A stretch of DNA of 64,000 nt from Styela clava (taxonomy: Eukaryota; Chordata; Ascidiacea; Stolidobranchia; Styelidae), in assembly GCF_964204865.1 (NCBI RefSeq), contig NC_135250.1, forward strand, positions 8,928,001-8,992,000, written 5' to 3'. Numbering within the stretch: the first letter of the stretch is position 1; the number at the start of each line of letters is the position of its first letter. The position numbers and the translations under genes are program-made. This document shows, one piece after another, positions 1,291 to 49,330 of this stretch. The notes beneath the pieces were generated by a model. That model saw nothing but the letters and a program-made list of their open reading frames with translations. It did not search any database and had not been told where the DNA came from.

Positions 1291-1482
1291 AATCATACCT
1301 CCCGCGGTGTAGATATATTTTATCAACTTTCTCACTTGCCTTTGCATCTTATTTGATCAACGGAGAATAATTACTAGAGATATTTATTAAGGGTCCGTTA
1401 AATGAATGTTTCTGATAAATTTCTCCGAATGGATTCATTTCTCATGACAATATTTCTGTTTGGATCACTGACCATGACCTTT

Positions 1483-1556
1483 TGTAACATGGCAACTACC
1501 GATTACATAACAATGGTTCAACAATGCCCTTGGCAACCTTGGTATCCATGAGAACC
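1483..1556. promoter_or_regulatory. Possible RFX/X-box-like motifs upstream of the array gene
   Basis: TGTAACATGGCAAC at 1483-1496 and GGTATCCATGAGAACC at 1541-1556 are imperfect two-half-site palindromes resembling the RFX X-box (GTNRCC N0-3 RGYAAC). A further GGCAAC half-site lies between them. The first motif is about 490 bp upstream of the ATG and is kept in the other copies (11015, 20572, 29851, 41350). That conservation is weak evidence, because the copies are nearly identical everywhere. No TATA box is obvious. Confidence 0.2.
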
Positions 1557-1969
1557 AGAGACAACCAATCATGTACCTCTGTACTTTTGCAATTAGTCTT
1601 GTAGTCTGTTCTGTCGAGTCTTTACTCGTTCGGTCGAGGGGGTTTAAGTTTCAATCGTACGATGTTTTCGATAGATCTTTCTGCGTGGCTTGTTATGTAA
1701 CACTTTCCTGGTGAGAAATGATAATAATGTTGGGCTATATGTGCCGATGCAATATTACTTCATGGTAACGTTATATTTAATGACTCAATCTGACGGATCG
1801 AATACCGATGCAAAATCGAACACTTATTGTCTAATCCGATTTTAATTTTCCGAGTTCTGTCAAATCCAAGTTTTTATAGTAATCAGACTTAATCAATATG
1901 TTATATTTTATAGCCTTGGAATAATACAATCAATTACGTTACATCCCATTCTTGCTAGCCAATTTCAAT

Positions 1970-4900
1970 ATGGGGATAGCGTGCTGTAAATGCACAAATG
2001 GAGATAATGATGAAACGATTAATAAAAAGAAAAAAATGACGAAAACGCAAAGGCGGCGTTGGTTAAGGCGGAGAAAAACAGATGGAGAGATATTTCAATC
2101 GACTGAACCAACGAGGGAATCGCTAGATGCAGAGAAGCGGGAAACAGGTCGAATCGCTTTTAAAAAGCAGCAGCTTTCGTTGTGAGTAACAATATTAATT
2201 TAATTCGAATAAGTGAATACTTGTTTTTTTTTATAGTTAAACTCAGAATTAAAACGGTTGTTGATATTACAAACATATTTTTTGATGAAATAATTTTGTC
2301 GTTGATAACACCGCCTACTTTTATCAATCTTGTCCTGCTAGGAATCTTGAAGTGAAGTAGTACTTTTCAGTGATACATCCGAAATTAGGATATATTAGCT
2401 TATTGACATGGAGGTACTCCCGAAGTATATTAACCAAGATGGCGGACACCAGAACGTGGTATGTGTACCAGGTTGAGGTTAGGGTGGGGCCATAATTTTA
2501 TTCCAATTTTCCTTATTTTAGTTCTATTATGAGTTTGCGGTCTAGCCAAATGAATCCCGTAATATTTGTACCTGAAATTATGGCTCAACCCTAACCTGCT
2601 ACACATACTACGTTCCGGTATTCGCCATCTTGGTTCACATACTTCGGGAGTACCGACATGAAAATCACTCGAAACGCTTTTTCCCAATAACACTAATCGA
2701 TCAGAAAGTGGTATTTTTGCACGCGCAACATTTAATGATCTGTTATTCAATACATTACATCAAATATAAGTCAATGTGAAAATAATTGTATTTATTTATC
2801 TTCTCCCATTTTTCTCCTGTCCGCATGGCATTTCCATTATTCCCGCACACAGTCAAACCATATTAAGAATAACTTTACTCGAAAAAAAAATTAACGTCCG
2901 TGGACAAATAACTTTATGGATCAATTGACATACATTAAATGGAATGAACATTGGCAACGGTGGCTGCAAAAAGATGATGAATCTTGTAATAACAACAACA
3001 ATTTTATTGAAAAGAAAAAGTGTGAACATTTTTTCATCGTCAGGAACTGCGTTTCGTTCATAACGAACAAAACCTAACCACAATGTAATGATATCACACA
3101 TCATAAACAATTCATGACATTGAGAGATGGAAGCTGACTGCGAATAACATAATCATCTTCATGCGGATTTTTCATTGATTTTATTCTATTAGTATCAGTT
3201 CGATTTGAATATTTTTGTCTTTTATCATTTGTTCAGAAGACGCTGTTTCTGATTTGTCATTTAATTTGAGTTGGTTTATAGAACCAGGCTGAATTTGCTT
3301 TATAGAATAATTGAATTTTTTTATTTTCAGCGGGCTTGTAACATGGCATTTCTTCAGTGAATTTCATTCCTACTGTCAATTGCATACATTTAAAAATATT
3401 TCTAAAAAAAAAACAGTTTGCTAAAAAAAGGTAATATAATATTTCATCATCAACTAGTAGCCCAAGGCATTTTCAACTCATTCGCGTAACGTGGATGGCT
3501 TTAAATAATATGCATATTCACAAAAATGTAATTAGCAATGCATTTTTAGAAATGGAACTTTTGGGAGGAGAAATACCCTGAAGCCTTTGCGAATATACCT
3601 GGGGAATCGTTTACAAGAGTAAGTTTTTACCTGTTTCATTAATTTGCCGTTGCCACGATTCACTTTTCCACAAAACATTATTTTTACAGAACTCAGAGAG
3701 TTTGGGAGACAAAGCTGCTTTGGGCATCGGATTTGAGATCCAATTACACTGCGCTACTTCTACGAGGACTAGTTCTTTCTTCCAGGAGGGTAATGTGTCC
3801 ATTTACTCTTTCGAAATATTCAGAGTATTCACACGTTTAGACGGTTCATATTATATGTAATCTGCTGATACAAATTGAAACTCATCATGTTAAGCTAAGA
3901 TGCATGTCAAGGCATCAAATTGAGTATCTTTTCGTATAAATTAATCCTTATTCCGTATATCGACAGACACGTCATGTTACAAGAGTAAATGGGCTAATGT
4001 CATCAGTCAACGTTGTCAATACCACTAATAAAAAATGCATCGAATCATTTTCCACAAAAGTCTCGAAATTTCAATCAACAGTAAGTATATTGGTTTCTGA
4101 AAACAAAAATTTGTGTCACTATTAGTAGTATTCCATGTAGTTGTTAATATTTTATTATATTTTCAGAATTGTAATCCGATGCAACAATTTGATCCACTGA
4201 GGTAAGCGCTTTATATTTGAAATATTTTTTATCAATAGACATAAACTTTGAAATTCATACCTGAGCAATTTATACAATTAGCCATAAAAAATATTCTGTT
4301 TTATATATCTAGAAATGGGAATTTCACAGGAGTGATCTCCATGAGGAAGACACTCAGAAACTATTTGCAACAGTAAGTTCATGAATTATATTATTAACTT
4401 GGCATTGTTCCTGCAATTTATACTTTAAAACGAGATTAAATTTTCGCAGAACTCGAATGGCGTGGGAACAAAGTTCCTTGTTATGGGCTTCCAACGTCAA
4501 AGTAAACCCAGGTCGTTGTGTGGAGATTGTTCAAAGTATTGTTCGTTTTACTTTTGAGGTAACTTTCAACAGACGTATTTTTATATTCAAGAATATGTTT
4601 ATTTCAGCCTGCTTAGAAATGCGGAATAGGTCGCTATAAATATGTATATTGATTTTTTAACTGGTTCGTGTCCACAGCACACAACACAATGTGAAGAGTT
4701 TTTAGATCTTGGAGAGTAAAATTAACGCTTGCCTTTAAAAATATCGAATAGGTGTGTGAAGCATTTTTACCAAATGGTATCCATCTTCACCTGTTTTTAT
4801 TTAAACAGGCATCTCCGATGTCTCTTAAAGCAGGAAAACTGATTTCGGCCATTCCTATTGGCCATATGAGGTCGGCCAAATTGGCAAATGACGAATCAAA

Positions 4901-7548
4901 AGTAAGTTCGGTCACTAAAAATAAATATAGTATTGACTGACAGTAATTAAGATAAAACACTTCCAGATAGGGGAAATGCAAATTAACATAAAGTTCAGAC
5001 ATGGTTTCTTTATTTTTGTATTTGGTTAAGTGGTATAACGCGTATCCAAACCCCTTTTTTGTACCTTCATCTTAGTGAGTCCCCATGCTAAGCGTGCACG
5101 TATATAAACTACCGCTAAGACTAACTTTTTGAATGCCTATTTTTTAAAATATTCAGCCGAAAAAAGAAATTGTTTCATCTAGCAATTTGACAGATCTTAA
5201 AACATTGGGTTGCAAAAGAGATGAAACGTTAGTTCAGTCAAGGGTAGGTTGATTTTATTATTCGTAATTCGCAAATTTCTGTGTCAACTAAAAACTATAT
5301 ATTTTTTTGTTTTCTGTATTTTAAGAATTATCAGGAGAACAGATTCCATCAAACTATGTATGTATCTTTTTTCATTTGAATAAAATATATATGTTGAAAA
5401 TCCAATATATTATTCACGTTTCTGTTTTATTTCAGGGAAATTGCAAAACTTAAACAACAGAACGAGAGAACGAAAATAAAAATCAAACGACAGATTCAGG
5501 TGATATATCGACGATCATGGCTGACAAATATTTTACTCGAAAATAAAAACGATTAGAAAGTTCATATACAAATATTCAAAGTATAATTAATTAATTAAGC
5601 GCAAACAATAAACCAATTGTCCATATCAAAACAAAAACTGATCAAAATGTGATCGACTTTTAGGAACGACATGAAATGGCGCAGGACAGAAGCCATCGAT
5701 TCACTAATCCGAAGGTCAGTTATATTTATTCTAACACACATACTCTAATCATTCATCAATTTTGGCTGCTTTTTACTATGCTCTGCACTGCTTATTTACT
5801 ATGCTCTAATATTGTAATAGACACTCATGGATTTCATTTTTAGACACCGTGTTTTGTTAACTGCGAGGTTAATAAATCGGCGATTCATAGCAGTCCTACA
5901 AATGTGAGATCTGCTTCAAACGAAGTTAAACGTGAATCAAAAGTAAGTATATTCATCGGATGTATTGTGATAAAAAAAAATTACATTTTATTTCTTTAAT
6001 ATTCAACAATAATTAATGAGTAAAATTTGAGCGAAAAAGGGGATTTTTATGATAATTCCTATTTTTAATCCGTTTCATTTCTTATTTCAAGTGCTTTCCT
6101 GGAGAAAACGACGTCCGGCCACGTCTGTGAGTATAATATCTATTTTTTCATTTATTAATATGATTGAAATTTTGGGTAACGAATTTAAAGTACTTCTCTT
6201 TTTTAAGTGGATTTGTAAGATTCAAGGAAAAGAATAAAAAAAGGATGGAGACAATCAGGAGGCGGAGAGAGGTAAAATAATAACAGAAACATCAAAAAAA
6301 ATTATTTCAAAATTTGAAAAAAATTATTCGAAAAGTTTTTACAAGCTGATATAGAAAATTGCATGTTTTCACTGGAGTGGGAGCAGGATTTGCATTTTCT
6401 AAATTCCCCAGAGTCGAAGTTTTTGTTACAAAAATTCGATTATTCCGGATTTCATAGCTGGAGTGGGAGTCGGTCCTGAAATATGGTCCGAGTCCGGATG
6501 CGTCAGGCGGAGTCGATTTGAATTCTCTCCGGCTCTAAATCCCTGTAAAAGTAAAAAATGATTTCCATCCTTTTAGGAACTCGAAGAAAGAGTTCGGCAG
6601 ATGGATGAAGACCTCAGAATATCCAAAATGAAGGTCTGGTATTTATTTATTTATACTAGATTTTTTTACTTTTTCTCCATTTCAACTTTAAACTTTGGAT
6701 CAATATTTCTATCTTAAGTTTGTATGAAAAATGTCTTATTCTATTTTTGAGTTTAGTGTTTTGATAACTTTTTTGACCAAACTTCATTATGGTTTTATTA
6801 TTGCCATCTAAGCACCTTTTCGAACAGATTTGAAGAATATTATTTGGTAAAGCAATCACTCGCACATTTCATGTTTGACACAGTTAGAATCACGAATATT
6901 CTAAAATCTATTCCGCTTATTTTTTTTTTTAGCTTGAACGATCTAATTCAGGGAATACTGTAAAACATCATCAAACCGAAGTTGGTAAGTATCATAGTCC
7001 ATTTCGCTATGTTAAAATATCAACTCAATTTTATCTGAATATGACGACATTTGTGTTATTTAGATTTATTAGTTTGCCGCAAAATAGAAAGTGTATTTGT
7101 GAGATTTGGTTGGGTCATAGCCCAAGTTCGTGAGACAAAATAAGATATAACTGCTAAGATTAAGATGATAATAATTGCTGAGTCAAGTAATTAGAATGTA
7201 ATAAAAATATGAAGATGGAAGGATTTAGTCTGTCTAATTTTGGTTATGCGCATACGAAGTAGACAAGGAGAAAGGATCTGCAGTTTAACATAATATCCTA
7301 GTACCCAACGTAGTTCAAACTGATGGTTACAAATTAGTATCGTGGAAATTCCATTACGATTTCGATTGGTGCTAATTCTAGCATATTAAAACATATTTAA
7401 AAAGATAAAATTATCATTCGAATCGCATGGGATACAATATTTTATAAAATACTACAAAAATTCAAAAGATCAATATCCCTATCTCATATTTACAGGTGAC
7501 AGCAGAAACAGGGAATGCCGAAACTCCCAGCAATGTTTTCCGCCATAA
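1970..7548 (+). CDS. Unrecognised 18-exon acylated coiled-coil protein, copy 1 (intact)
   Basis: Coding exons: 1970-2181, 3550-3618, 3690-3789, 3967-4080, 4167-4201, 4313-4372, 4450-4558, 4809-4901, 5157-5243, 5326-5357, 5436-5499, 5664-5714, 5844-5942, 6092-6126, 6208-6271, 6577-6633, 6933-6984, 7496-7548. All junctions are GT..AG with compatible phases; the CDS is 1,386 nt (461 residues). The ATG at 1970 gives MGIACCKC, with Gly2 and Cys5, Cys6 and Cys8 suited to myristoylation plus palmitoylation. A polybasic stretch follows (RRRWLRRRK, about residues 30-40). Residues 72-110 and 178-214 are an internal duplication (WE...LLWAS). Charged coiled-coil-like segments lie at about 305-335 and 388-432. 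The C-terminus is CFPP. A membrane-anchored structural or adaptor role is possible but is inference only. I recognise no family. Confidence 0.8.
2414..2654. mobile_element. Short inverted-repeat element in intron 1 (copy 1)
   Basis: The ends are inverted repeats: GGTACTCCCGAAGTAT on the left and its complement ACTTCGGGAGTACC on the right. The symmetry extends inward through the AACCAAGATGGCG, CGGAACGT, GTATGTGTA and AGGTTAGGGT motifs, making a foldback MITE. GACAT occurs just outside each end as a possible target duplication. It has no coding capacity. Confidence 0.65.
4678..4719 (+). other. Possible alternative terminal exon after exon 7
   Basis: A good acceptor (TCCACAG) precedes 14 in-frame codons (HTTQCEEFLDLGE then TAA) in phase with the end of exon 7. 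It is open in copies 1, 4 and 5, but in copies 2 and 3 the same place reads into an early TGA. If used, it would give an isoform of about 246 residues without the C-terminal coiled coils. No transcript evidence is available. Confidence 0.2.
6370..6545. repeat. GGAGTCGG-type interspersed repeat in intron 15
   Basis: A GC-richer block with reiterated GGAGTGGGAG, GGAGTCGG and GTCCGAGTCCGG motifs. The reverse strand starts CAGGGATTTAGAGCC, which resembles a nonautonomous DNA transposon end. It is present in all copies: about 15930-16103, 25240-25382 (with an internal deletion of about 37 bp), 36707-36881 and 45990-46182 (with a small extra GGAATCGAATCG block). No coding sequence. Confidence 0.5.
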
Positions 7549-7773
7549 CCACTGGGTCACCAATCCACATACATTTGCATATTTGTGTGTCTTGATTTTT
7601 TTATATGCACTTATTTCTCTGTAATTTAGCATAAATATATATATAAACATAATTATCGGATTTGATATCCTTTATTTGGGTGAATTTTTGTAAATGTAAT
7701 AGTTGAATCAGTGTTTTCAGCTGGGTTGCTCGACCTAAAAGGGAAATTGACTTTTGAACTATCGGAAAGAACT

Positions 7774-8232
7774 TGACTACTTTCCTCCTTGACTTCTTCT
7801 CTTTTTTCGCCAAAATGATTTTTTCTGTCTTATTCCACATATTCACACCTTAATTTTTTTGGGGGGCCTCGCCGATTGACCTTATTTATTATATTTTTTA
7901 CTTTAACTTCTCAATGCTTAATTTTTTCATTCCTTTTTTATTCGTAGTGCACACGCATAAACTTTATTTTATCTCACAACTTTCCTTGTCTGTTTTTCTA
8001 GATTACTTTCCTCTTTGGCCAGAATAATTTTTTTTTTCATCTATACTTATTTCAACATTTCCAATCTTAATTTTCTTTGGGGCCTCATTAAACTTTTTTC
8101 TCTACAACTTTGCTTGTCTGTTTTCCTAGACTACTTTCCTCCGTGACTTCTTTTCTCTTTGGCAAGAATGATTTTCTTTTATCTGTACTTATTTCACAAC
8201 ATTTCCAATATTAATTTTCTCTGGGGCCTCGC
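7774..8232. repeat. Degenerate pyrimidine-rich tandem repeat 3' of gene copy 1
   Basis: Three diverged subunits start at GA(C/T)TACTTTCCTC (7774, 8001, 8129). Each runs through a CTT/TTTTC-rich stretch to GGGGCCTC. The equivalents are 17332-17790, 26611-27067 and 38110-38567. Copy 5 of the array breaks inside this repeat. Several hydrophobic open frames here come only from the T-rich composition. Confidence 0.6.
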
Positions 8233-8248
8233 TTTATTATTTTTTCCG

Positions 8249-8584
8249 ATGAGATCTGCAACTTATTCGAGTATGTCACAGAAAACTGAAAGTTTCAAAG
8301 TGAAATCTATGAACGCAGTTGCTGTCACGGACATAGAATGTGAAACAGTATCAACAATCCATACAAACATTCCAAACGAGAAACATAAACTGTCAAATCA
8401 GTCTAAACGTATGAGCTGCCATTCGAAATATGAACATTTATGCAGAAAAGAACATGATACGGAGGAATACAACTCACTTGAATCAATTAAAGTGAATACA
8501 AAACATTTGATAACTTTGGGATTTCGTTGGAGCAGGTACCACACAACTTTGTCTGCTAACTGTCATTCTGCTTCCTTCCATTAA
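8249..8584 (+). pseudogene. Possible extra coding exon, copy 1 (frameshifted)
   Basis: The frame begins MRSATYSSMSQKTESFKV and reads as a plausible hydrophilic protein. Relative to copy 3 one base is lost near 8490, so the last third is out of frame. The normal copy ends in SLEQVPHNFVC, and a CAG|GTACCA donor-like site lies at the SLEQ codons. Function unknown. Confidence 0.25.
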
Positions 8585-9150
8585 ATATTATGATATCCTA
8601 TAAAAAGATTGAAAAAAAAGCTGATCTCTCAACTCTAGCGGATCACGCGACACAATCATAAGAGTCCGAGACCCTTACATTGTATATATACTATGGACGT
8701 TGTGTAAAAACGCGTTGCGTTATTGTAAACTCAAAATTTTCGGAAACTTGATATATCTTCTGTTTCTAGTTTATTCAATAAATTTAACACGGCCTTCGGA
8801 ATGTGTTCATTAAAACATTTTCAAATATTTTATCTGGTCTTCTCAAAATAGTGTAGCAAAAATTCTATTCTACAGACATTTAGAAATATTTGAATGTATA
8901 TTTTGAAATTATTGTGGTGGTTATTGCTCTACTAGAGGTGCGGTTGACGTGTTGTGGAGTAGCGATTCTTGAAATGGGTGAAGCAGATATGAAAAAGCGA
9001 AAAAAACTCGGATGGGGAGATTCATTCAAGCACATTTCAAAAGATTAAAAATATGGAAACTTGTTTTGGGTATGTGCCAGTTGTAAAACGCCCTCAGAAA
9101 TAGAAGCTCAAAGTTAGGCTGTAAGTGTGAAGTCAATTAAGCTATAGTAT

Positions 9151-10158
9151 AGGGCCGGCCTGCCCAACCCTTTTAGTGTCGCGGGCCACTTTCACATAAA
9201 GAATTCATTGCGGGCCACAATCGTTTTTACCAAACTTAAATACCAGCCAAGTTCTGTTTTACGTCGTTTTGTAAAATTCGAATGACCAATACAAGTACCT
9301 AACAAAGCAACGTTTTTAGGATTTCCGAACGAATATATTGAATATGTAGGAATGACATCAAGTCAATATTATCACAATTTTAAACGGATTCGCAGTAACT
9401 AAATTTCAGAATTTTTATTTAACGCAAAATTAGCATGACCACAATAGAAAAATACAAACAGAAGAAAAAAAAACGAATGCCGGACCCAGTAGCAAATATA
9501 TTGTTCACTTTTTTTACGGCGGCGATAAGGAATATCAAAATCGACACGAATAATATGTAATAAGAATGAAATTAATTTCGACAATAGCTTTCGAGTTTGT
9601 CAAACAAAACGCGCAGTTCCGCAAGATATGAAAAACCTAAACATCAAAGTCCACCAGATCGCAAGACGTGATATCTGCGTGATATGGAGAACCGACATTT
9701 GGATAAAGATGGCCGGAATGAACACAGCAAAATCACGAAACATACCTTACTAGCCTATAGAAAATATCTGTATCTGAAATCCCAATTGTCATTCACGGCT
9801 CGTTGGAAAGTGGCGGTTGAATACATTCAATACAACACACTGAAATAGGCAAATCGTTCGTATCACTAATTGAAAGCAATGTCTCGAAAATTGTGATTTC
9901 AAAGCTGACTATGATAAAAAGGAAGTCAAGATATCTCTCCCCGACAATCACGTCCGCAAAGAGACTTGAAAAGTGGCATTTCTCGACCGTTTAAACAAGG
10001 AATAATGTTTTTATGGCATGTGTCAATATTTTCTTAGGTTTGTGGGAGACATCGAGATAAGTTTAGCATACCAAATTCTGGAAAATGCCGCGCGGGCCAC
10101 TCGGAACCCTTCAGTGGGCCAGATGTGGCCCCGCGGGCCATGTGTTGGACGACCCTTG
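9151..10158. mobile_element. hAT-type nonautonomous element, copy 1
   Basis: The left end AGGGCCGGCCTGCCCAACCC and the right end (reverse strand) CAAGGGTCGTCCAACACATG have the look of hAT-superfamily termini. Both are followed by GCGGGCCAC-rich subterminal sequence. TATAGTAT precedes the left end and TATAGCGT follows the right end, a 6/8 match to an 8-bp target duplication. It is 1,008 bp with no transposase frame. Confidence 0.7.
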
Positions 10159-11503
10159 TATAGCGTCTCCGCCACGGGCTTAGTCGAAAAAACGAGTTTT
10201 AGAGTCTATTTCGCAACTCAAGACCAAGGGGTTCATACTCGGGCTGTCAGTACAATGTAAATTCATACTACTTGCTGGCGTTTGCAAATTTATGTGCGTA
10301 TAGAAATTTTATATAGAATGACAGGGAGTTTTATATCCTCGAATATCTTTCTCGATTAAAGCATTGTTATTTGCAAAATGTAATGATGTGAAAAAAATAT
10401 TTCCAATCATAAGGCAGTTAAACATGGAGATTCCCGAGATATTTATTGAGATTTCCAGTTTGTTTCGAGTGTTTAAAATCATTACTAAATAATCATACCT
10501 CCCGCGGTGTAGATATATTTTATCAACTTTCTCACTTGCCTTTGCATCTTATTTGATCAACGGAGAATTTTGAAATATCCGAAGCAGCTCACTCGAATTC
10601 ACTGTGATGATTTTGGGAATATTTGTAAGTAATCGTGGCAACGCAACTCGTGTACGACCGATTTCTTGGAGAACTTTTTTATTCATTGGCGCAACTTAAT
10701 TGGATGATTCAGGAAGAGCTGTAACCTTGATTTGACCTTCGAATACTTATAATACACAAATAGTGGCATAAAATTCTCTACTCCGAATTATTTACTGACA
10801 ACGTTTTAAAAAACATCAGTAAATAAATAAATAATAAATAAATAACACCCGCATGTTAAAACAACGTTGTATCTATGCATTCTAAGATGTAACTGTTTGA
10901 ATTACTAGAGATATTTATTAGGGGTCCGTTTAATGAATGTTTCGAATAAATCTTTCCGAATGAATTCATTTACTCATGACAATATTTCTGTTTGGATCAC
11001 TGACCATGACCTTTTGTAACATGGCAACTACCGATTACATAACAATGGTTCAACAATGCCCTTGGCAACCTTGGTATCCATGAGAACCAGAGACAACCAA
11101 TCATGTACCTCTGTACTTTTGCAATTAGTCTTGTAGTCTGTTCTGCCGAGTCTTTACTCGTTCGGTCGAGGGGGTTTAAGTTTCAATCGTACGATGTTTT
11201 CGATAGATGTTTCTGCGTGGCTTGTTATGCTAACCATTTCCTGGTGAGAAATGATAATAATGTTGGGCTATATGTGCCAATGCAATATTACTTCATGGTA
11301 ACGTTATATTCAATGACTCAATCTGACGGATCGAATACCGGTGCAAAATCGAACACCTATTTTCTAATCCGATTTTAATTTTCCGAATTCTGTCCAAATC
11401 CAAGTTTTTATAGTAATCAGACTTAATGAATATGTTATATTTTATAGCCTTGGAATAATACAATCAATTACGTTACATCCCATTCTTGCTAGCCAATTTC
11501 AAT

Positions 11504-17105: not shown

Positions 17106-17806
17106 CCACTGGGTCACCAATCCACATACATTTGCATATTTGTGTGTCTTGATTTTTTTATATGCACTTATTTCTCTGTATTTTAGCATAAATATATATA
17201 TAAACATAATTATCGGATTTGATATCCTTTATTTGGGTGAATTTTTGTAAATGTAATAGTTGAATCAGTGTTTTCAGCTGGGTTGCTCGACCTAAAAGGG
17301 AAATTGACTTTTGAACTATCGGAAAGAACTTGACTACTTTCCTCCTTGACTTCTTCTCTTTTTTCGCCAAAATGATTTTTTCTGTCTTATTCCACATATT
17401 CACACCTTAATTTTTTTGGGGGGCCTCGCCGATTGACCTTATTTATTATATTTTTTACTTTAACTTCTCAATGCTTAATTTTTTCATTCCTTTTTTATTC
17501 GTAGTGCACACGCATAAACTTTATTTTATCTCTACAACTTTCCTTGTCTGTTTTTCTAGATTACTTTCCTCTTTGGCCAGAATAATTTTTTTTTTCATCT
17601 ATACTTATTTCAACATTTCCAATCTTAATTTTCTTTGGGGCCTCATTAAACTTTTTTCTCTGCAACTTTGCTTGTCTGTTTTCCTAGACTACTTTCCTCC
17701 GTGACTTCTTTTCTCTTTGGCAAGAATGATTTTCTTTTATCTGTACTTATTTCACAACATTTCCAATATTAATTTTCTCTGGGGCCTCGCTTTATTATTT
17801 TTTCCG

Positions 17807-31516: not shown

Positions 31517-32265
31517 AATGTGTCTTTTATCTGCATAATATTTTCATGTTCTTCATTGTTCCTGGCACAACAAAGTGCAATATTCAATTTAAATTTTTTA
31601 GCAAGCAGTCTTTTATGTACATACATTTTTCATGGACTTTATTGTTCTGTTATTCGCTAAGATAATCACAATCTTGTTCATGTTGCGTATACGTAACCAC
31701 AACTTAAAGAGGCTTGGGCAGTCAAAGTGTAGTGCGAATTTTGAATGCGTAGCATCGGGTTAATTAATTACTTCCTGCGGACATTTAAATGATAACATCT
31801 CGACGTAACGTTATTGCGGATATCGTCACGTTTAGTTGCATTTGCGTAATATACGTAAAGTTGTGCGTGACGAGACGTTGCCTCTCTTCAATGAGAACAC
31901 CAATTTGACGCAGCGTCGCTGTTAAATCTACAGATAATCTAATATATTTGGCCATAAAATTTGAATGGCTTATCGTAAAATCGTTTTGGATACGTATATG
32001 AAAAGCTATTCAAATTCTCCACATATATTGCCGATTGAATATGTGGCTATTTAGGCAAGAAATCGAAATTCTTTATATTAAATATTTGTTATCATACAAT
32101 AATTTCATACGCACTTTCAAATTGCCAATTTTACTGAAACATCGTATTTTAGAGCACCGATATTTACAATATAATTAGTCCCAATAACAAGCTTTCATGC
32201 AATATAAAATTTATTTAAATACTCATTGTGGTTCTTGAGATACGATATCATAAAGTTGATTCCCT

Positions 32266-32338
32266 CCGACAAGCCGGTAAACCGGCTTGCCGGGGCACAG
32301 AGCGTACTCAAACAAGCCGGTAAACCGGCTTGCCGGGT
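32266..32338. repeat. Two palindromic subterminal repeats at the right end of the piggyBac-like element
   Basis: ACAAGCCGGTAAACCGGCTT followed by GCCGGG occurs twice, at about 32268 and 32313, separated by GCACAGAGCGTACTCA. Each contains the palindrome AAGCCGGTAAACCGGCTT. Such repeats could be transposase-binding sites or hairpins; this is inference from position. Confidence 0.6.
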
Positions 32339-32742
32339 TCAAGCGGTTAACAAAAAGAGAAAAATGACGAAAACGCAAAGGCGGCGTTGGTTAAGGCGGA
32401 GAAAAACAGATGGAGAGATATTTCAATCGACTGAACCAACGAGGGAATCGCTAGATGCAGAGAAGCGGGAAACAGGTCAAATCGCTTTTAAAAAGCAGCA
32501 GCTTTCGTTGTGAGTAACAATATTAATTTAATTCGAATAAGTGAATACTTTTTTTTATAGTTAAACTCAGAATTAAAACGGTTGTTAATATAACAAACAT
32601 ATTTTTTGATGAAATAATTTTGTCGTTGATAACACCGCCCACTTTTATCAATCTTGTCCTGCTAGGAATCTTGAAGTGAAGTAGTACTTTTCAATGATAC
32701 ATCCTAAATTAGGATATATGGGTTACCAGCATATTGACATAG

Positions 32743-32979
32743 AGATACTCCCGAAGTATAGTAACCAAGATGGCGGACACCGGAACGTGGTATGTGTACG
32801 AGGTTAGGGTTACGCCATAATTTAATTCCAATTTTCCGTATTTTAGTTCTATTATGGGTTTGCGGTCTAGCCAAATGACTCCCGTAATATTTGTACCTGA
32901 AATTATGGCTCAACCCTGACCTACTACACATACTACGTTCCGGTATTCGCCCTCTTGGTTCACATACTTCGGGAGTACC
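32743..32979. mobile_element. Short inverted-repeat element in intron 1 (copy 4)
   Basis: Same foldback element and site as in copies 1 and 2, with a few substitutions (left end GATACTCCCG). Copies 3 and 5 carry a deletion with short filler in its place, at about 21488 and 42266. Confidence 0.65.
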
Positions 32980-35900: not shown

Positions 35901-38584
35901 TATACAAGAATACAAAGTATAATTAATTAATTAAGCGCAAACAATAAACCAATTGTTCATATCAAAACAAAAACTGATCAAAATGTGATCGACTTTTAGG
36001 AACGACATGAAATGGCGCAGGACAGAAGCCATCGATTCACTAATCCGAAGGTCAGCTATATTTATTCTAACACACATACTCTAATCATTCATCAATTTTG
36101 GCTGCTTTTTACTATGCTCTGCACTGCTTATTTACTATGCTCTAATATTGTAATAGACACTCATGGATTTCATTTTTAGACACCGTGTTTTGTTAACTGC
36201 GAGGTTAATAAATCGGCGATTCATAGCAGTCCTACAAATGTGAGATCTGCTTCAAACGAAGTTAAACGTGAATCAAAAGTAAGTATATTCATCGGATGTA
36301 TTGTGATAAAAAAAAATTACATTTTATTTCTTTAATATTCAACAATAATTAATGAGTAAAATTTGAGCGAAAAAGGGGATTTTTATGATAATTCCTATTT
36401 TTAATCCGTTTCATTTCTTATTTCAAGTGCTTTCCTGGAGAAAACGACGTCCGGCCACGTCTGTGAGTATAATATCTATTTTTTCATTTATTAATATGAT
36501 TGAAATTTTGGGTAACGAATTTAGAGTACTTCTCTTTTTTAAGTGGATTTGTAAGATTCAAGGAAAAGAATAAAAAAAGGATGGAGACAATCAGGAGGCG
36601 GAGAGAGGTGAAGTAATAACAGAAACATTAAAGAAAATTATTTCAAAATTTGAAAAAAAATATTCGAAAAGTTTTTACAAGCTGATATAGAAAATTGCAT
36701 GTTTTCACTGGAGTGGGAGCAGGATTTGCATTTCCTAAATTCCCCAGAGTAGAAGTTTTTGTTACAAAAATTCGATTATTCCGGATTTCATAGCTGGAGT
36801 GGGAGTCGGTCCTGAAATATGGTCCGAGTCCGGATGCGTCAGGCGGAGTCGATTTGAATTCTCTCCGGCTCTAAATCCCTGTAAAAGTAAAAAATGATTT
36901 CCATCCTTTTAGGAACTCGAAGAAAGAGTTCGGCAGATGGATGAAGACCTCAGAATATCCAAAATGAAGGTCTGGTATTTATTTATTTATACTAGATTTT
37001 TTTACTTTTTCTCCATTTCAACTTTAAACTTTGGATCAATATTTCTATCTTAAGTTTGTATGAAAAATGTCTTATTCTATTTTTGAGTTTAGTGTTTTGA
37101 TAACTTTTTTGACCAAACTTCATTATGGTTTTATTATTGCCATCTAAGCACCTTTTCGAACAGATTTGAAGAATATTATTTGGTAAAGCAATCACTCGCA
37201 CATTTCATGTTTGACACAGTTAGAATCACGAATATTCTAAAATCTATTCCGCTTATTTTTTTTTTTAGCTTGAACGATCTAATTCAGAGAATACTGTAAA
37301 ACATCATCAAACCGAAGTTGGTAAGTATCATAATCCATTTCGCTATGTTAAAATATCAACCCAATTTCATCTGAATATGACGACATTTGTGGTATTTAGA
37401 TTTATTAGTTTGCCGCAAAATAGAAAGTGTATTTGTGAGATTTGGTTGGGTCATAGCCCAAGTTCGTGAGACAAAATAAGATATAACTGCTAAGATTAAG
37501 ATTATAATAATTGCTGAGTCAAGTAATTAGAATGTAATAAAAATATGAAGATGGAAGGATTTAGTCTGTCTAATTTTGGTTATGCGCATACGAAGTAGAC
37601 AAGGAGAAAGGATCTGCAGTTTAACATAATATCCTAGTACCCAACGTAGTTCAAACTGATGGTTACAAATTAGTATCGTGGAAATTCCATTACGAAGTCG
37701 ATAGGTGCTTTTCTAGAATATTAAAACATATTTAAAAAGATAAAATCATCATTCGACTCGCATGGGATACAATATTTTATAAAATACTACAAAAATGTAA
37801 AAGATCAATATCCCTATCTCATATTTACAGGTGACAGCAGAAACAGGGAATGCCGAAACTCCCAGCAATGTTTTCCGCCATAACCACTGGGTCACCAATC
37901 CACATACATTTGCATATTTGTGTGTCTTGATTTTTTTATATGCACTTATTTCTCTGTATTTTAGCATAAATATATATATAAACATAATTATCGGATTTGA
38001 TATCCTTTATTTGGGTGAATTTTTGTAAATGTAATAGTTGAATCAGTGTTTTCAGCTGGGTTGCTCGACCTAAAAGGGAAATTGACTTTTGAACTATCGG
38101 AAAGAACTTGACTACTTTCCTCCTTGACTTCTTCTCTTTTTTCGCCAAAATGATTTTTTCTGTCTTATTCCACATATTCACACCTTAATTTTTTTGGGGG
38201 GCCTCGCCGATTGACCTTATTTATTATATTTTTTACTTTAACTTCTCAATGCTTAATTTTTTCATTCCTTTTTTATTCGTAGTGCACACGCATAAACTTT
38301 ATTTTATCTCTACAACTTTCCTTGTCTGTTTTTCTAGATTACTTTCCTCTTTGGCCAGAATAATTTTTTTTTTCATCTATACTTATTTCAACATTTCCAA
38401 TCTTAATTTTCTTTGGGGCCTCATTAAACTTTTTTCTCTGCAACTTTGCTTGTCTGTTTTCCTAGACTACTTTCCTCCGTGACTTCTTTTCTCTTTGGCA
38501 AGAATGATTTTCTTTTATCTGTACTTATTTCACAACATTTCCAATATTAATTTTCTCTGGGGCCTCGCTTTATTATTTTTTCCG

Positions 38585-38767
38585 ATGAGATCTGCAACTT
38601 ATTTGAGTATGTCACAGAAAACTGAAAGTTTCAAAGTGGAATCTATGAACGCAGTTGCTGTCACGGACATAGAATGTGAAACAGTATCAACAATCCATAC
38701 AAACATTCCAAACGAGACACATAAACTGTCAAATCAGTCTAAACGTATGAGCTGCCATTCGAAATAG
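38585..38767 (+). pseudogene. Possible extra coding exon, copy 4 (early stop)
   Basis: Identical to the truncated version of copy 2, with TAG after HSK. Confidence 0.25.
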
Positions 38768-39487
38768 GAACATTTATGCAGAAAAGAACATGATACGGAG
38801 GAATACAACTCACTTGAATCAATTAATGTTGAATACAAAACATTTGATAACTTTGGGATTTCGTTGGAGCAGGTACCACACAACTTTGTCTGCTAACTGT
38901 CATTCTGCTTCATTCCATTAAATATTATGATATCCTATAAAAAGATTGAAAAAAAAGCTGATCTCTCAACTCTAGCGGATCACGCGACACAATCATAAGA
39001 GTCCGAGACCCTTACATTGTATATATACTATGGACGTTGTGTAAAAACGCGTTGCGTTATTGTAAACTCAAAATTTTCGGAAACTTGATATATCTTCTGT
39101 TTCTAGTTTATTCAATAAATTTAACACGGCCTTCGGAATGTGTTCATTAAAACATTTTCAAATATTTTATCTGGTCTTCTCAAAATAGTTTAGCAAAAAT
39201 TCTATTCTACAGACATTTAGAAATATTTGAATGTATATTTTGAAATTATTGTGGTGGTTATTGCTCTACTAGAGGTGCGGTTGACGTGTTGTGGAGTAGC
39301 GATTCTTGAAATGGGTGAAGCAGATATGAAAAAGCGAAAAAAACTCGGATGGGGAGATTCATTCAAGCACATTTCAAAAGATTAAAAATATGAAAACTTG
39401 TTTTGGGTATGTGCCAGTTGTAAAACGCCCTCAGAAATAGAAGCTCAAAGTTAGGCTGTTAGTGAGAAGTCAATTAAGCTATAGTAT

Positions 39488-40494
39488 AGGGCCGGCCTGC
39501 CCAACCCTTTTAGTGTCGCGGGCCACTTTCACATAAAGAATTCATTGCGGGCCACAATCGTTTTTACCAAACTTAAATACCAGCCAAGTTCTGTTTTACG
39601 TCGTTTTGTAAAATTCGAATGACCAATACAAGTACCTAACAAAGCAACGTTTTTAGGATTTCCGAACGAATATATTGAATATGTAGGAATGACATCAAGT
39701 CAATATTATCACAATTTCAAACGGATTCGCAGTAACTAAATTTCAGAATTTTTATTTAACGCAAAATGAGCATGACCACAATAGAAAAATACAAACAGAA
39801 GAAAAAAAAACGAATGCCGGACCCAGTAGCAAATATATTGTTCACTTTTTTTACGGCGGCGATAAGGAATATCAAAATCGACACGAATAATATGTAATAA
39901 GAATGAAATTAATTTCGACAATAGCTTTCGAGTTTGTCAAACAAAACGCGCAGTTCCGCAAGATATGAAAAACCTAAACAACAAAGTCCACCAGATCGCA
40001 AGACGTGATATCTGTGTGATATGGAGAACCGACAGTTGGATAAAGATGGCCGGAATGAACACAGCAAAATCACGAAACATACCTTACTAGCCTATAGAAA
40101 ATATCTGTATCTGAAATCCCAATTGTCATTCACGGCTCGTTGGAAAGTGGTGGTTGAATACATTCAATACAACACACTGGAATAGGCAAATCGTTCGTAT
40201 CACTAATTGAAACGATGTCTCGAAAATTGTGATTTCAAAGCTGACTATGATAAAAAGGAAGTCCAGATATCTCTCCCCGACAATCACGTCCGCAAAGAGA
40301 CTTGAAAAGTGGCATTTCTCGACCGTTTAAACAAGGAATAATGTTTTTATGGCATGTGTCAATATTTTCTTAGGTTTGTGGGAGACATCGAGATAAGTTT
40401 AGCATACCAAATTCTGGAAAATGCCGCGCGGGCCACTCGGAACCCTTCAGTGGGCCAGATGTGGCCCCGCGGGCCAGGTGTTGGACGACCCTTG
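39488..40494. mobile_element. hAT-type nonautonomous element, copy 4
   Basis: Same element, site and flanking 8-mers as in copy 1. It is nearly identical to the element in copy 2. Confidence 0.7.
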
Positions 40495-40825
40495 TATAGC
40501 GTCTCCGCCACGGGCTTAGTCGAAAAAACGAGTTTTAGAGTCTATTTCGCAACTCAAGACCAAGGGGTTCATACTCGGGCTGTCAGTACAATGTAAATTC
40601 ATACTACTTGCTGGCGTTTGCAAATTTGTGTGCGTATAGAAATTTTATACAGAATGACAGGGAGTTTTATATCCTCGAATATCTTTCTCGATTAAAGCAT
40701 TGTTATTTGCAAAATGTAATGATGTGAAAAAAATATTTCCAATCATAGGCAGTTAAACATGGAGATTCCCGAGATATTTATTGAGATTTCCAGTTTGTTT
40801 CGAGTGTTTAAAATCATTACTAAAT

Positions 40826-43800
40826 AATCATACCTCCCGCGGTGTAGATATATTTTATCAACTTTCTCACTTGCCTTTGCATCTTATTTGATCAACGGAG
40901 AATTTTGAAATATCCGAAGCAGCTCACTCGAATTCACTGTGATGATTTTGGGAATATTTGTAAGTAAACGTGGCAACGCAACTCGTGTACGACCGATTTC
41001 TTGGAGAACTATTTTATTCATTGGCGCAACTTAATTGGATGATTCAGGAAGAGCTGTAACCTTGATTTGACCTTCGAATACTTATAATACACAAATAGTG
41101 GCATAAAATTCTCTACTCCGAATTATTTACTGACAACGTTTTAAAAAACATCAGTAAATAAATAAATAATAAATAAATAACACCCGCATGTTAAAACAAC
41201 GTTGTATCTATGCATTCTAAGATGTAACTGTTTGAATTACTAGAGATATTTATTAAGGGTCCGTTTAATGAATGTTTCGAATAAATCTTTCCGAATGAAT
41301 TCATTTACTCATGACAATATTTCTGTTTGGATCACTGACCATGACCTTTTGTAACATGGCAACTACCGATTACATAACAATGGTTAAACAATGCCCTTGG
41401 CAACCTTGGTATCCATGAGAACCAGAGACAACCAATCATGTACCTCTGTACTTTTGCAATTAGTCTTGTAGTCTGTTCTGCCGAGTCTTTACTCGTTCGG
41501 TCGAGGGGGTTTAAGTTTCAATCGTAAGATGTTTTCGATAGATGTTTCTGCGTGGCTTGTTATGCTAAGCCATTTCCTGGTGAGAAATGATAATAATGTT
41601 GGGCTATATGTGCCAATGCAATATTACTTCATGGTAACGTTATATTTAATGACTCAATCTGACGGATCGAATACCGGTGCAAAATCGAACACCTATTGTC
41701 TAATCCGATTTTAATTTTCCGAATTCTGTCCAAATCCAAGTTTTTATAGTAATCAGACTTAATCAATATGTTATATTTTATAGCCTTGGAATAATACAAT
41801 CAATTACGTTACATCCCATTCTTGCTAGCCAATTTCAATATGGGGATAGCGTGCTGTAAATGCACAGATGGAGATAATGATGAAACGATTAACAAAAAGA
41901 GAAAAATGACGAAAACGCAAAGGCGGCGTTGGTTAAGGCGTAGAAAAACAGATGGAGAGATATTTCAATCGACTGAACCAACGAGGGAATCGCTAGATTC
42001 AGAGAAGCGGGAAACAGGTCAAATCGCTTTTAAAAAGCAGCAGCTTTCGTTGTGAGTAACAATATTAATTTAATTAATATTGTAATAAGTGAATACTTTT
42101 TTTTATAGTTAAACTCAGAATTAAAACGGTTGTTAATATAACAAACATATTTTTTGATGAAATAATTTTGTCGTTGATAACACCGCCCACTTTTATCAAT
42201 TTTGTCCTGCTAGGAATCTTGAAGTGAAGTAGTACTTTTCAATGATACATCCGAAATTAGGATATATATCGATTAGGATAAAATCTCTCGAAACGCTTTT
42301 TCCCAATAACACTAATCGACCAGAAAGTGGTATTTTTGCACGCGCAACATTTAATGATCTGTTATCCAATATATGAAATCAAATATAAGTCAATGTGAAA
42401 ATAATTGTATTTATTTATCTTCTCCCATTTTCCTTATGTTCCGCATGACATTACCAATATTCCGGCACACAGTCCCATCATATTAAGATTAACTTTACTC
42501 GGAAAAAAAATATTATTGTCTGTGGACGAAGAACTTTATGAATCAATTGACATGCATTAAATGGAATGAACATTGGTAACGATGGCTGCAAAAAGATGAT
42601 GAATCTTGTATTAACAACAACAAATAAATTGAAAAGAAAAAGTGTGAAGATTTTTCTGTGGTCAGGAACTGCGTTTCGTTCATAACGAACAAAACCCAAC
42701 CACAATGTAATGATATCACACATCATAAACAATTCATAACATTAAGAGATAGAAGCTGACTGCGAGTAACATATTCATCTTTAGCCGATTTTTCATTTAT
42801 TTTATTCTATTAGTATCAGTTCGATTTGAATATTTTTGTCTTTTACCATTTCTTCAGAAGACGCTGTTTCTGATTTGTCATTCAATTTAAGTTGGTTTAT
42901 ACTTCAGTCTGAATTTGCTTTACAGAAAAATTGAAATTTTCCTATTTTAGCGGGCTTGTAAAATGGCATTTCTTTAGTGAATTTCATTCCTACTATCAAT
43001 TGCATACATTTAAAAATATTTAAAAAAAAAACAGTTTGCTAAAAAAAGGTAATATAATATTTCATCATCAACTAGTAGCCGAAGGCATTTTCAACTCATT
43101 CGCGTAACGTGGATGGCTTTAAATAGTATGCATATTTACAAATTGTAATTGGCATATGCATTTTTAGAAATGGAACTTTTGGGAGGAGAAATCCCCTGAA
43201 GCCTTTGCGAATATACCTGGGGAATCGTTTACAAGAGTAAGTTTTTACCTGTTTCATTAATTTGCCGTTGCCACGATTCACTTTTCCACAAAACGCTATT
43301 TTTACAGAACTCAGAGAGTTTGGGAGACAAAGCTGCTTTGGGCATCGGATTTGAGATCCAATTACACTGCGCTACTTCTACGAGGACTAGTTCTTTCTTC
43401 CAGGAGGGTAATGTGTCCATTTACTCTTTCGAAATATTCACAGTATTCACACGTTTGGACGGTTCATATTATATGTAATCTGCTGATACAAATTGAAACT
43501 CATCCTGTTAAGACAAGATGCATGTCAAGGCATCAAATTGAGTATCTTTTCGTATAAATTAATCCTTATTCGGTATATTGACAGACACGTCATGTTACAA
43601 GAGTAAATGGGCTAATGTCATCAGTCAACGTTGTCAATACCACTAATAAAAAATGCATCGAATCATTTTCCACAAGAGTCTCGAAATTTCAATCAACAGT
43701 AAGTATATTGGTTTCTGAAAACAAAAATTTTGGTCACTATTAGTAGTATTCCATGTAGTTGTTAATATTTTATTATATTTTCAGAATTGTAATCCGATGA

Positions 43801-46800
43801 AACAATTTGATCCACTGAGGTAAGCGCTTCATATTTAAAATATTTTTTATCAATAGACATAAACTTTGAAATTCATACCTGAGCAATTTATACAATTAGC
43901 CATAAAAAATATTCTGTTTTATATATCTAGAAATGGGAATTTCACAGGAGTGATCTCCATGAGGAAGACACTCAGAAACTATTTGCAACAGTAAGTTCAT
44001 GAATTATATTATTAACTTGGCATTGTTCTTGCAATTTATACTTTAAAACGAGATTAATTTTTCGCAGATCTCGAATGGCGTGGGAACAAAGTTCCTTGTT
44101 ATGGGCTTCCAACGTCAAAGTAAACCCAGGTCGTTGTGTGGAGATTGTTCAAAGTATTGTTCGTTTTACTTTTGAGGTAACTTTCAACAGACGTATTTTT
44201 ATAATCAAGAATATGTTTATTTCAGCCTGCTTAGAAATGCGGAATAGGTCGCTATAAATAGGTATATTGATTTTTTAACTGGTTCGTGTCCACAGCACAC
44301 AACACAATGTGAAGAGTTTTTAGTTCTTGGAGAGTAAAATTAACGCTTGCCTTTAAAAATATCGAATAGGTGTGTGAAGCATTTTTACCAAATGGTATCC
44401 ATCTTCACCTGTTTTTATTTAAACAGGCATCTCCGATGTCTCTTAAAGCAGGAAAACTGATTTCGGCCATTCCTATTGGCCATATGAGGTCGGCCAAATT
44501 GGCAAATGACGAATCAAAAGTAAGTTCGGTAACTAAAAATAAATATAGTATTCACTGACAGTAATTAAGATAAAACACTTCCAGATAGGGGAAATGCAAA
44601 TTAACATAAAGTTCAGACATGGTTTCTTTATTTTTGTATTTGGTTAATTGGTATAACGCGTATCCAAACCCCTTTTTTGTACCTTCATCTTAGTGAGTCC
44701 CCATGCTAAGCGTGCACGTATATAAACTACCGCTAAGATTTACTTTTTGAATGCTTATTTTTTAAAATATTCAGCCGAAAAAAGAAATTGTTTCATCTAG
44801 CAATTTGACAGATCTTAAAACATTGGGTTGCAAAAGAGATGAAACGTTAGTTCAGTCAAGGGTAGGTTGATTTTATTATTCGTAATTCGCAAATTTCTGT
44901 GTCAACTAAAAACTATATATTTTTTTGTTTTCTGTATTTTAAGAATTATCAGGAGAACAGATTCCATCAAACTATGTATGTATCTTTTTTCATTTGAATA
45001 AAATATATATGTTAAAAATCCAATATATTATTCACGTTTCTGTTTTATTTCAGGGAAATTGCAAAACTTAAACAACAGAACGAGAGAACGAAAATAAAAA
45101 TCAAACGACAGATTCAGGTGATATATCGACGATCATGGCTGACAAATATTTTACTCGAAAATAAAAACGATTGGAAAGTTCATATACAAATATTCAAAGT
45201 ATAATTAATTAATTAAGCGCAAACAATAAACCAATTGTTCATATCAAAACAAAAACTGATCAAAATGTGATCGACTTTTAGGAACGACATGAAATGGCGC
45301 AGGACAGAAGCCATCGATTCACTAATCCGAAGGTCAGTTATATTTATTCTAACACACATACTCTAATCATTCATCAATTTTGGCTGCTTTTTACTATGCT
45401 CTGCACTGCTTATTTACTATGCTCTAATATTGTAATAGACACTCATGGATTTCATTTTTAGACACCGTGTTTTGTTAACTGCGAGGTTAATAAATCGGCG
45501 ATTCATAGCAGTCCTACAAATGTGAGATCTGCTTCAAACGAAGTTAAACGTGAATCAAAAGTAAGTATATTCATCGGATGTATTGTGATAAAAAAAAATT
45601 ACATTTTATTTCTTTAATATTCAACAATAATTAATGAGTAAAATTTGAGCGAAAAAGGGGATTTTTATGATAATTCCTATTTTTAATCCGTTTCATTTCT
45701 TATTTCAAGTGCTTTCCTGGAGAAAACGACGTCCGGCCACGTCTGTGAGTATAATATCTATTTTTTCATTTATTAATATGATTGAAATTTTGGGTAACGA
45801 ATTTAAAGTACTTCTCTTTTTTAAGTGGATTTGTAAGATTCAAGGAAAAGAATAAAAAAAGGATGGAGACAATCAGGAGGCGGAGAGAGGTAAAGTAATA
45901 ACAGAAACATTAAAGAAAATTATTTCAAAATTTGAAAAAAAATATTCGAAAAGTTTTTACAAGCTGATATAGAAAATTGCATGTTTTCACTGGAGTGGGA
46001 GCAGGATTTGCATTTTCTAAATTCCCCAGAGTCGAAGTTTTTGTTACAAAAATTCGATTATTCCGGATTTCGTAGCTGGAGTGGGAGTCGGGAATCGAAT
46101 CGTAGTCGGTCCTGAAATATGGTCCGAGTCCGGATGCGTCAGGCGGAGTCGATTTGAATTCTCTCCGGCTCTAAATCCCTGTGAAAATGAAAAATGACTC
46201 CCATCCTTTTAGGAACTCGAAGAAAGAGTTCGGCAGATGGATGAAGACATCAGAATATTTAAAATGAAGGTCTGGTATTTATTTATACTAGGTTTTTATA
46301 CTTTTTCTCCATTTCGAGTTTAAATTTCGGATCAATATTTCTATGTTAAGTTTGTATGAAATATGTCTTATCCTATTTTTGAGTTTAGTGTTTCGATAAC
46401 TTTTTTGACCAAACTTTATTATGATTTTATTATTGCCATCTATGCACCTTTTCGAACAGATTTGAAGAATATTATTTAGTAAAGCAATCACTCGCACATT
46501 TCACAGTTAGAGTTACGAATATTCTAGAATCTATTCCGCTTATTTTTTTAGCTTGAACGATCTAATTCAGGAAATACCGTAAAACATCATCAAACCGATA
46601 TTGGTAAGTATCATAGTCCATTTCGCTATGGTAAAATTTCTACTCAATTTTATCTAAATATAACGACATTTGTGTTATCTAGAATTTTAAGAATCTAAGA
46701 ATAACATAATTTTTTTGCGAAATAGGAAGTGTTTTTGTGAGCTTTCGTTAGGCATAGTCTAACTTCGCGAGAAAAAATAATATATAACTGAGAAGATGAA

Positions 46801-47397
46801 GTTTATAATAATTGCTGAGTCAAGTAATGAGAATGTAATAAAAATATGAAGATGGAAGGATTTAGTCTGTCTAATTTTGGTTATGCGCATACGAAGTAAA
46901 CAAGGAGAAAAGATCTGCAGTTTAACATAATATCCTAGTACCCAACGTAGTTCAAACTGATGGTTACAAATTAGTATCGTGGAAATTCCATTACGAAGTC
47001 GATAGGTGCTAATTCTAGCATATTAAAACATATTTAAAAATATAAAATCATCATTCGACTCGCATGGGATACAATATTTTATAAAATACTACAAAAATTC
47101 AAAAGATCAATATCCCTATCTCATATTTACAGGTGACAGCAGAAACAGGGAATGCCGAAACTCCCAGCAATGTTTTCCGCCATAACTACTGGGTCGCCAA
47201 TCCACATACATTTGCATATTTGTGTGTCTTAATTTTTTTATCTGCACTTATTTCTCTATAATATAGTATAAATATATATATAAATAAATTTCAATAATAT
47301 TTGAATTTGATATCTTTTATTAGGGTGAATTTTTGTAATTACGTACTAAGTTGAATCAGTGTTATTTATTGCTGGGTTGACTTCTTTTCTCTTTGGC
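40826..47397 (+). repeat. Tandem repeat unit, copy 5 (truncated)
   Basis: Last copy of the array. It carries the whole gene but ends inside the pyrimidine-rich repeat. After GCTGGGTTGA (ending near 47380) it jumps to a short segment matching the third pyrimidine-rich subunit of the other copies. Unrelated GC-rich DNA begins at about 47398. The last 1.2 kb or so is visibly more diverged than the equivalent parts of copies 1-4. The hAT-type element and the extra reading frame are absent. Confidence 0.9.
41840..47185 (+). CDS. Unrecognised 18-exon acylated coiled-coil protein, copy 5 (intact)
   Basis: Coding exons: 41840-42051, 43168-43236, 43308-43407, 43585-43698, 43785-43819, 43931-43990, 44068-44176, 44427-44519, 44775-44861, 44944-44975, 45054-45117, 45282-45332, 45462-45560, 45710-45744, 45826-45889, 46213-46269, 46552-46603, 47133-47185. 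Open over 461 codons. Copy-specific changes include T to S at the start of exon 7, LRISK to IRIFK in exon 16 and EV to DI at the end of exon 17. Introns 16 and 17 are the most diverged of the five copies, yet the flanked exons stay open and correctly spliced, which suggests the protein is or was under constraint. Confidence 0.8.
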
Positions 47398-49160: not shown

Positions 49161-49164
49161 TAGC

Positions 49165-49245: not shown

Positions 49246-49330
49246 GAGAGCGAAAGTATTGAAATCCTACTTGATTAACAACGTCACGCTTGGCAGCTCA
49301 CGTCCAAGCTAATTAATGCGACAAGACAAG

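Follow-up and report, generated by a model that had tools for sequence, protein, structure and literature searches.

Organization of the tandem array

We examined a 64,000-nucleotide stretch of the Styela clava genome (the window; contig NC_135250.1, here C1, at C1:8928001-8992000), which is largely occupied by a tandem array of a candidate protein-coding gene with 18 short exons. Self-comparison of the window revealed five units lying head to tail, with a unit length of about 9.5 kb (Table 1); identity between units is 94-99% over long aligned stretches, and 89% for one stretch at the truncated end of unit 5. The array opens with what is left of an earlier unit: a short remnant directly before unit 1 repeats the unit tail, and a 95% copy of unit positions 8246-10493 is found at C1:8924166-8926338, some 3.8 to 1.7 kb before the window, so that a partial unit precedes the five. 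A search with the protein over 100 kb on each side found no additional exon. The copies, head to tail and with their gene structure conserved, make up a tandem gene family, and four of the five are open, which bears out the view of an earlier note on this DNA that a multi-copy gene has been kept open in most copies.

Gene model and the broken copy

The exon model was drawn up from unit 1 alone, in which 17 exons were picked by eye, and the other units were examined afterwards. A search of the introns for further in-phase exons conserved in all units yielded the 69-base exon 2, and the donor of exon 7 was lengthened; a second extra-exon candidate from the same search, 51 bases long, was weaker and is excluded from the model. 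The final model has 18 exons and 461 codons, with equal lengths and phases across the units; GT-AG borders are found at 17 of 17 introns in each of units 1, 2, 3, and 5, and their frames are uninterrupted. The earlier note had described just such an 18-exon structure in all five units and an open 461-codon frame in four: the four open frames are as described, and the shared structure is found generally, except at exon 1 of unit 4. The junction between exons 1 and 2 is the least certain one of the model. An open reading frame (ORF) in the unit tail (8249-8581) was also considered as an extra exon and rejected: it is open in units 1 and 3, but there are stops in units 2 and 4, and the frame changes in unit 1 relative to the others. 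Compared with the left partial unit, its differences are, by eye, mostly replacements, with no clear constraint.

Unit 4 is broken by an insert in exon 1. TTAA target duplications and similar ends are features of piggyBac-type DNA transposons, and the insert is like these elements in having TTAA at both sides and similar ends; a scan of three of its ORF pieces against Pfam recognised no transposase domain, and the element may be non-coding. The exon 7 donor of the same unit is GG, while its remaining 33 splice dinucleotides are intact; among the five units, splice-site loss is thus seen only in the one that is already broken. A smaller element with inverted ends lies in intron 1 of some units. 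Separately, the region 9130-10170 of unit 1 has ends that look alike by eye and is a possible remnant of a hAT-like element.

Table 1. Units, exons, and inserted elements of the array (window positions, forward strand of C1).
Feature	Position	Strand	Remarks
Remnant of earlier unit	1291-1368	+	repeats unit tail 10491-10568
Unit 1	1369-10899	+	open, 461 codons; coding exons within 1970-7548
Unit 1 exon 1	1970-2181	+	begins MGIACCKC, acylation-type N-terminus, then polybasic
Unit 1 exon 2	3550-3618	+	module A, first part
Unit 1 exon 3	3690-3789	+	module A, WE..LLWAS
Unit 1 exon 4	3967-4080	+	
Unit 1 exon 5	4167-4201	+	
Unit 1 exon 6	4313-4372	+	module B, first part
Unit 1 exon 7	4450-4558	+	module B, WE..LLWAS
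Unit 1 exon 8	4809-4901	+	
Unit 1 exon 9	5157-5243	+	
Unit 1 exon 10	5326-5357	+	
Unit 1 exon 11	5436-5499	+	
Unit 1 exon 12	5664-5714	+	
Unit 1 exon 13	5844-5942	+	
Unit 1 exon 14	6092-6126	+	
Unit 1 exon 15	6208-6271	+	
Unit 1 exon 16	6577-6633	+	charged, coiled-coil-like
Unit 1 exon 17	6933-6984	+	
Unit 1 exon 18	7496-7548	+	includes stop codon
Element with inverted ends, intron 1	2396-2660		in units 1, 2, and 4; not in units 3 and 5
Unit 2	10900-20456	+	open, 461 codons; exons 11504-11715, 13082-13150, 13222-13321, 13499-13612, 13699-13733, 13843-13902, 13980-14088, 14364-14456, 14716-14802, 14884-14915, 14994-15057, 15222-15272, 15402-15500, 15650-15684, 15766-15829, 16135-16191, 16491-16542, 17053-17105
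Unit 3	20457-29735	+	open, 461 codons; exons 21062-21273, 22390-22458, 22530-22629, 22807-22920, 23007-23041, 23151-23210, 23288-23396, 23672-23764, 24020-24106, 24189-24220, 24299-24362, 24527-24577, 24713-24811, 24961-24995, 25077-25140, 25414-25470, 25770-25821, 26332-26384
Unit 4	29736-41234	+	broken; exon 1 split by insert; exon 7 34788-34896, donor GG not GT; other exons 33882-33950, 34021-34120, 34298-34411, 34504-34538, 34651-34710, 35147-35239, 35493-35579, 35662-35693, 35772-35835, 36000-36050, 36180-36278, 36428-36462, 36544-36607, 36913-36969, 37269-37320, 37831-37883
Insert in unit 4 exon 1	30393-32346		1,954 bases; TTAA at both sides; similar ends CTCTTTGAAC / CCGCTTGAAC; piggyBac-like
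Unit 5	41235-47379	+	open, 461 codons; ends about 190 bases past stop codon; exons 41840-42051, 43168-43236, 43308-43407, 43585-43698, 43785-43819, 43931-43990, 44068-44176, 44427-44519, 44775-44861, 44944-44975, 45054-45117, 45282-45332, 45462-45560, 45710-45744, 45826-45889, 46213-46269, 46552-46603, 47133-47185

Exon conservation and splice signals

Across exons 2-18, the five units show 34 variable sites and no indels in 1,174 bases. When the exon pattern was circularly shifted (2,000 times), the mean was 73.2 variable sites and 9.4 indels, and values as low as the observed ones occurred in 0.2% and 0.25% of the shifts, respectively. In the 17-exon version of the model, the exons have 37 variable sites in 1,260 bases and the introns 305 in 4,423 bases; indel events number one in exons (the insert of unit 4) versus 40 in introns, in agreement with the earlier observation that the introns carry indels and substitutions.

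A chain finder that used generic splice matrices and open frames, with no coding or conservation data, gave unit 1 a score of 41.5 at a penalty of 3, versus 7.3 for the reverse strand and a mean of 10.2 for 60 shuffles (standard deviation, sd, 3.7; maximum 20.1); at penalties of 0 and 6, unit 1 again scored above all shuffles. Nine of the 11 exons that it placed in unit 1 were exact, and units 2, 3, and 5 scored 41.8, 40.7, and 38.7, with nine exact exons each. The mean of the controls (n = 64; 32 neighbouring stretches on both strands, some of which contain other genes, e.g., one with Cupin_8) was 15.7.

An internal duplication within the gene

Comparison of the exons with one another revealed that exons 2-3 (module A) are related to exons 6-7 (module B), with a local score of 61 versus 25.2 for shuffles (sd 4.7; none of 500 as high). 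Judged by their sequences, these exon pairs are the product of an old internal duplication. Over 29 aligned codons the modules have the same residue at 14, and in 10 of those 14 the codon is different; the motif LLWAS is common to both, four of its five codons having changed silently. This codon pattern is strong evidence for past selection on the chosen frame, and it also backs the inclusion of the 69-base exon 2 and the longer form of exon 7. No clear relation was seen between the other exon groups that were compared (the best pair, exons 10-13 versus exons 14-17, was equalled by 46 of 500 shuffles). Another reading frame of the modules is open over the scanned exon pieces and looks protein-like; it was rejected, as Pfam recognised nothing in it, it is at odds with the exon phases, and the chosen frame is the one in which the changes are silent.

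The predicted product

The predicted product looks soluble and is very basic, with 461 residues, an isoelectric point of about 10.4, and a hydropathy of about -0.96. Hydropathy indicated no membrane span (the best 19-residue mean is 0.73, at residue 232) and no apparent signal peptide, the N-terminal MGIACCKC being followed by charged residues. N-myristoylation follows the pattern G-{EDRKHPFYW}-x-x-[STAGCN]-{P}, with the glycine at position 2, and the N-terminus G-I-A-C-C-K fits it by eye in the four intact copies, so the modification is a predicted one; the cysteines of MGIACCKC are candidate sites of palmitoylation, and a polybasic stretch comes next.

The earlier note could not place the protein in any family, and the searches led to the same result: Pfam and NCBIfam gave no match above cut-off, and PDB gave no significant one. 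The whole protein matched no Pfam family; its C-terminal part gave weak sub-cut-off matches (the best to an alpha-helical domain) and exon 1 gave two more of that kind, while the prokaryote library NCBIfam gave one match below cut-off. There was no PDB match for a 419-residue version of the protein and one chance-level match for a 193-residue part, no Rfam match, and no homologue in scans of viral and prokaryote contigs.

Relatives in the same genome

The genome of the same animal was searched (376.6 Mb in 379 contigs); the search scores only the best candidates, so the match counts are lower bounds. DNA of exons 12-15 matched the five copies and, at 78%, one place on another contig, C8; the region of exons 2-9 matched all of these and also, at 76%, C1:8800548-8800697; and exon 1 found the five copies and two places near 8.80 Mb of C1. 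The protein gave at least 79 matches at E-values up to 10; of the matches listed, one was on C8, one was at C1:8803814-8804002, and the others were in the array. In the C8 copy (C8:23884709-23885555), exon 5 and exons 12-18 remain, with stops and indels, and divergence is 13% in exons 12-18 versus 18% in the introns between them (P 0.015); the stops and indels, together with the lower divergence of the exons, indicate a dead fragment of an older copy.

The locus near 8.80 Mb (C1:8796001-8808000) lies on the minus strand, some 125 kb to the left of the array. It contains six tandem exon-1-like copies, of which five begin MGLACCK and one LGLACCK; internal stops interrupt four of the six. Two further, degenerate copies of exon 1 are closer to the array type, and an exon-3-like piece (WEANSLLWASDL) is a third copy of the WE..LLWAS motif; the locus is possibly a relative with many first exons. 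More short repeated segments lie downstream of these.

Mobile-element pieces within the units could suggest that the gene, or a fragment of it, is carried by a locally amplified mobile element; we regard this as extremely improbable, as the units lie head to tail at a single place, and the genome, searched three times with DNA and once with protein, showed dispersed copies only in the form of the C8 fragment and the 8.80-Mb locus (the unit tail was not searched genome-wide).

Exchange and selection among the copies

Pairs of units differ at 0.9-1.9% of exon positions and 2.0-4.7% of intron positions. Variants shared by two copies switch partner along the gene: units 1 and 2 share 28 sites in 2660-3600, units 2 and 3 share 25 sites in 4300-5250, there are none in 5250-6300, and unit 5 alone deviates at 81 sites in 6300-7700. 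We read the switching of partners as unequal exchange and gene conversion. The same data bear on the idea that the copy number is partly an artefact of assembly, with haplotypes of a very heterozygous animal set in series. Some tunicates reach a heterozygosity of about 2-5%, and the intron differences between units, also 2-5%, would suit such an origin; however, there is no two-block pattern, since the shared variants link different copies in each segment, and the insert peculiar to unit 4 and the intron 1 element missing from units 3 and 5 also speak against it. We consider the artefact improbable.

The ratio of replacement to silent substitution rates (dN/dS) is 0.55-0.90 when intact copies are compared with one another (six pairs) and 0.64-1.40 in the four pairs that involve unit 4. 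This was a check proposed by the earlier note, which named a ratio near 1 as a refuting outcome: the ratios are below 1 in intact pairs, but an outcome near 1 stays compatible with the data. Length, splicing, and frame are kept, while constraint on the amino acids has been weak, or too slight to measure, since the copies arose by duplication.

Is the array a functioning gene family?

Our preferred explanation, to which we assign a probability of about 0.55, is a real spliced protein-coding gene, tandemly amplified, with four copies open, whose product is a probable acylated, membrane-tethered basic adaptor. Several results weigh against it. One control stretch scored 38.9 with the chain finder, slightly more than unit 5 (38.7); the chain finder missed nine of the 18 model exons, including exons 1 and 2, and started at a different ATG; one of 17 donors and five of 17 acceptors score below zero with the generic matrix; and an earlier chain finder with strict thresholds found just three exons in unit 1, where its main setting gave no clear difference from shuffles. 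The dN/dS values of intact pairs are not distinguishable from 1, and the variable codons comprise 30 replacement and 10 silent ones, which is the neutral expectation (P 0.36; of the 30, those at codons 16 and 17 border the insert in unit 4 and are not real substitutions). Exons 10-15 have no variation at all, and the introns between them are also nearly invariant, so gene conversion accounts for part of the low exon variation. Finally, the relatives found outside the array, on C8 and near 8.80 Mb, are few and decayed, and no function is backed by any family match.

Some of these results would be expected if the exon chain were a chance product of AT-rich sequence full of AG and GT, where free choice at each join lets any chain be forced; the six of 34 splice sites that score below zero and the failure of the strict chain finder point that way. 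Such an origin is nevertheless very improbable, as it is opposed by the constraint on the exons relative to shifted patterns, by the chain-finder scores, and by the duplication of the modules, and as exons chosen in unit 1 alone proved indel-free in the other units, the insert of unit 4 excepted.

A weightier alternative, which we still hold to be unlikely, is that of a once-functional gene whose array is now little or not constrained, the recent duplicates becoming pseudogenes like their relatives elsewhere. This would be consistent with dN/dS values not distinguishable from 1, with the broken unit 4, with the dead C8 fragment and its stops and indels, and with the 8.80-Mb locus, where four of the six MGLACCK-type copies of exon 1 have internal stops and both array-type copies are degenerate. 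Set against it are the lack of indels in 1,174 exon bases (9.4 in the shifted controls), with about half the substitutions, and the four stop-free copies, each with 34 of 34 splice dinucleotides. A coding gene family under birth-and-death turnover, with no recognised relative, remains the best reading, and its lineage-specific status is plausible.

Neighbouring genes and other features of the genome

Directly after the truncated unit 5, the sequence is GC-rich and repetitive (47380-49250), with a 103-base tandem repeat at 48703-48909. Farther on in the window, two similar stretches (51334-51917 and 58135-58661) encode small proteins that appear to be secreted and have an IGFBP-like domain (below the Pfam cut-off), and 62509-64000 holds the beginning of a gene whose N-terminus is signal-peptide-like and which has a Cupin_8 domain (above the Pfam cut-off, piece 63813-63998). 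One end of C1 carries TTAGGG-type telomere repeats and the far end a TCAGGG repeat, while the small contigs C377, C378, and C379 and an end of C8 are made up of a short satellite repeat, in which long repetitive ORFs can be read. COX1 was looked for in the assembly and not found. GH6 glycosyl hydrolases in an animal-type genome are a tunicate marker; a GH6 match above cut-off was found at C9:16179895-16180164, among several short open pieces, as for an intron-bearing gene. Together with the animal-type genes beside the array and the TTAGGG repeats, this match makes a tunicate source likely.

A model for the family and its likeness to known systems

For the preferred reading of a live coding family, we propose that unequal exchange produced the five 9.5-kb units, that patchy gene conversion would keep stretches of them alike, and that a transposon-like insert probably killed one copy while four remained open. 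The gene would be transcribed, and its product may be acylated at MGIACCK (MGLACCK in the relatives), with myristate on G2 and palmitate on the cysteines, the polybasic stretch helping to tether it to the inner face of the membrane. There the two duplicated tryptophan modules (WE..LLWAS) and the charged helical stretches of the C-terminal part might bind partners, and multiple copies could raise dosage or permit copies to drift. More speculatively, and in our judgement doubtfully, this could be a family of membrane-tethered adaptors restricted to tunicates, which arose by exon duplication near 8.80 Mb of C1 and has a rapid turnover of copies and first exons; a role in some fast-evolving process, e.g., defence, reproduction, or self/non-self recognition, would keep the copies variable.

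Orphan tandem arrays with birth-and-death evolution resemble this one in that the copies lie head to tail at one place with patchy conversion among them, one copy is dead, relatives in the vicinity are decayed, and no domain is recognised; the difference is that 18 short exons exceed, in our judgement, what is expected of a young orphan gene. Dually acylated polybasic adaptors (e.g., MARCKS- and GAP-43-like proteins) share the acylation-type N-terminus followed by a basic stretch, and are also hydrophilic, but the present protein has no Pfam or PDB similarity to them, and its acylation is a prediction. The micro-exon genes (MEG) of schistosomes are similar in having many short exons, no known domain, and multiple copies. 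Internal exons of MEG are symmetric, whereas only eight of the 16 internal exons here are multiples of three. A MEG identity was also rejected on exon size and secretion: MEG have exons of 3-81 bp and secreted products (PMC10526429), while seven of the 18 exons here are 87-212 bases long, above 81, and there is no apparent signal peptide. As it stands, the array is a candidate orphan family of a known kind, and no new kind of system.

In Styela clava, a single genome contains the live array, its broken copy, and older relatives that have decayed, which makes it possible to trace how a family of well-preserved multi-exon genes arises, spreads, and dies. Should the gene prove to be expressed, its acylation-type N-terminus and the LLWAS module, present twice, would offer testable handles on a protein that lies outside the family models searched.

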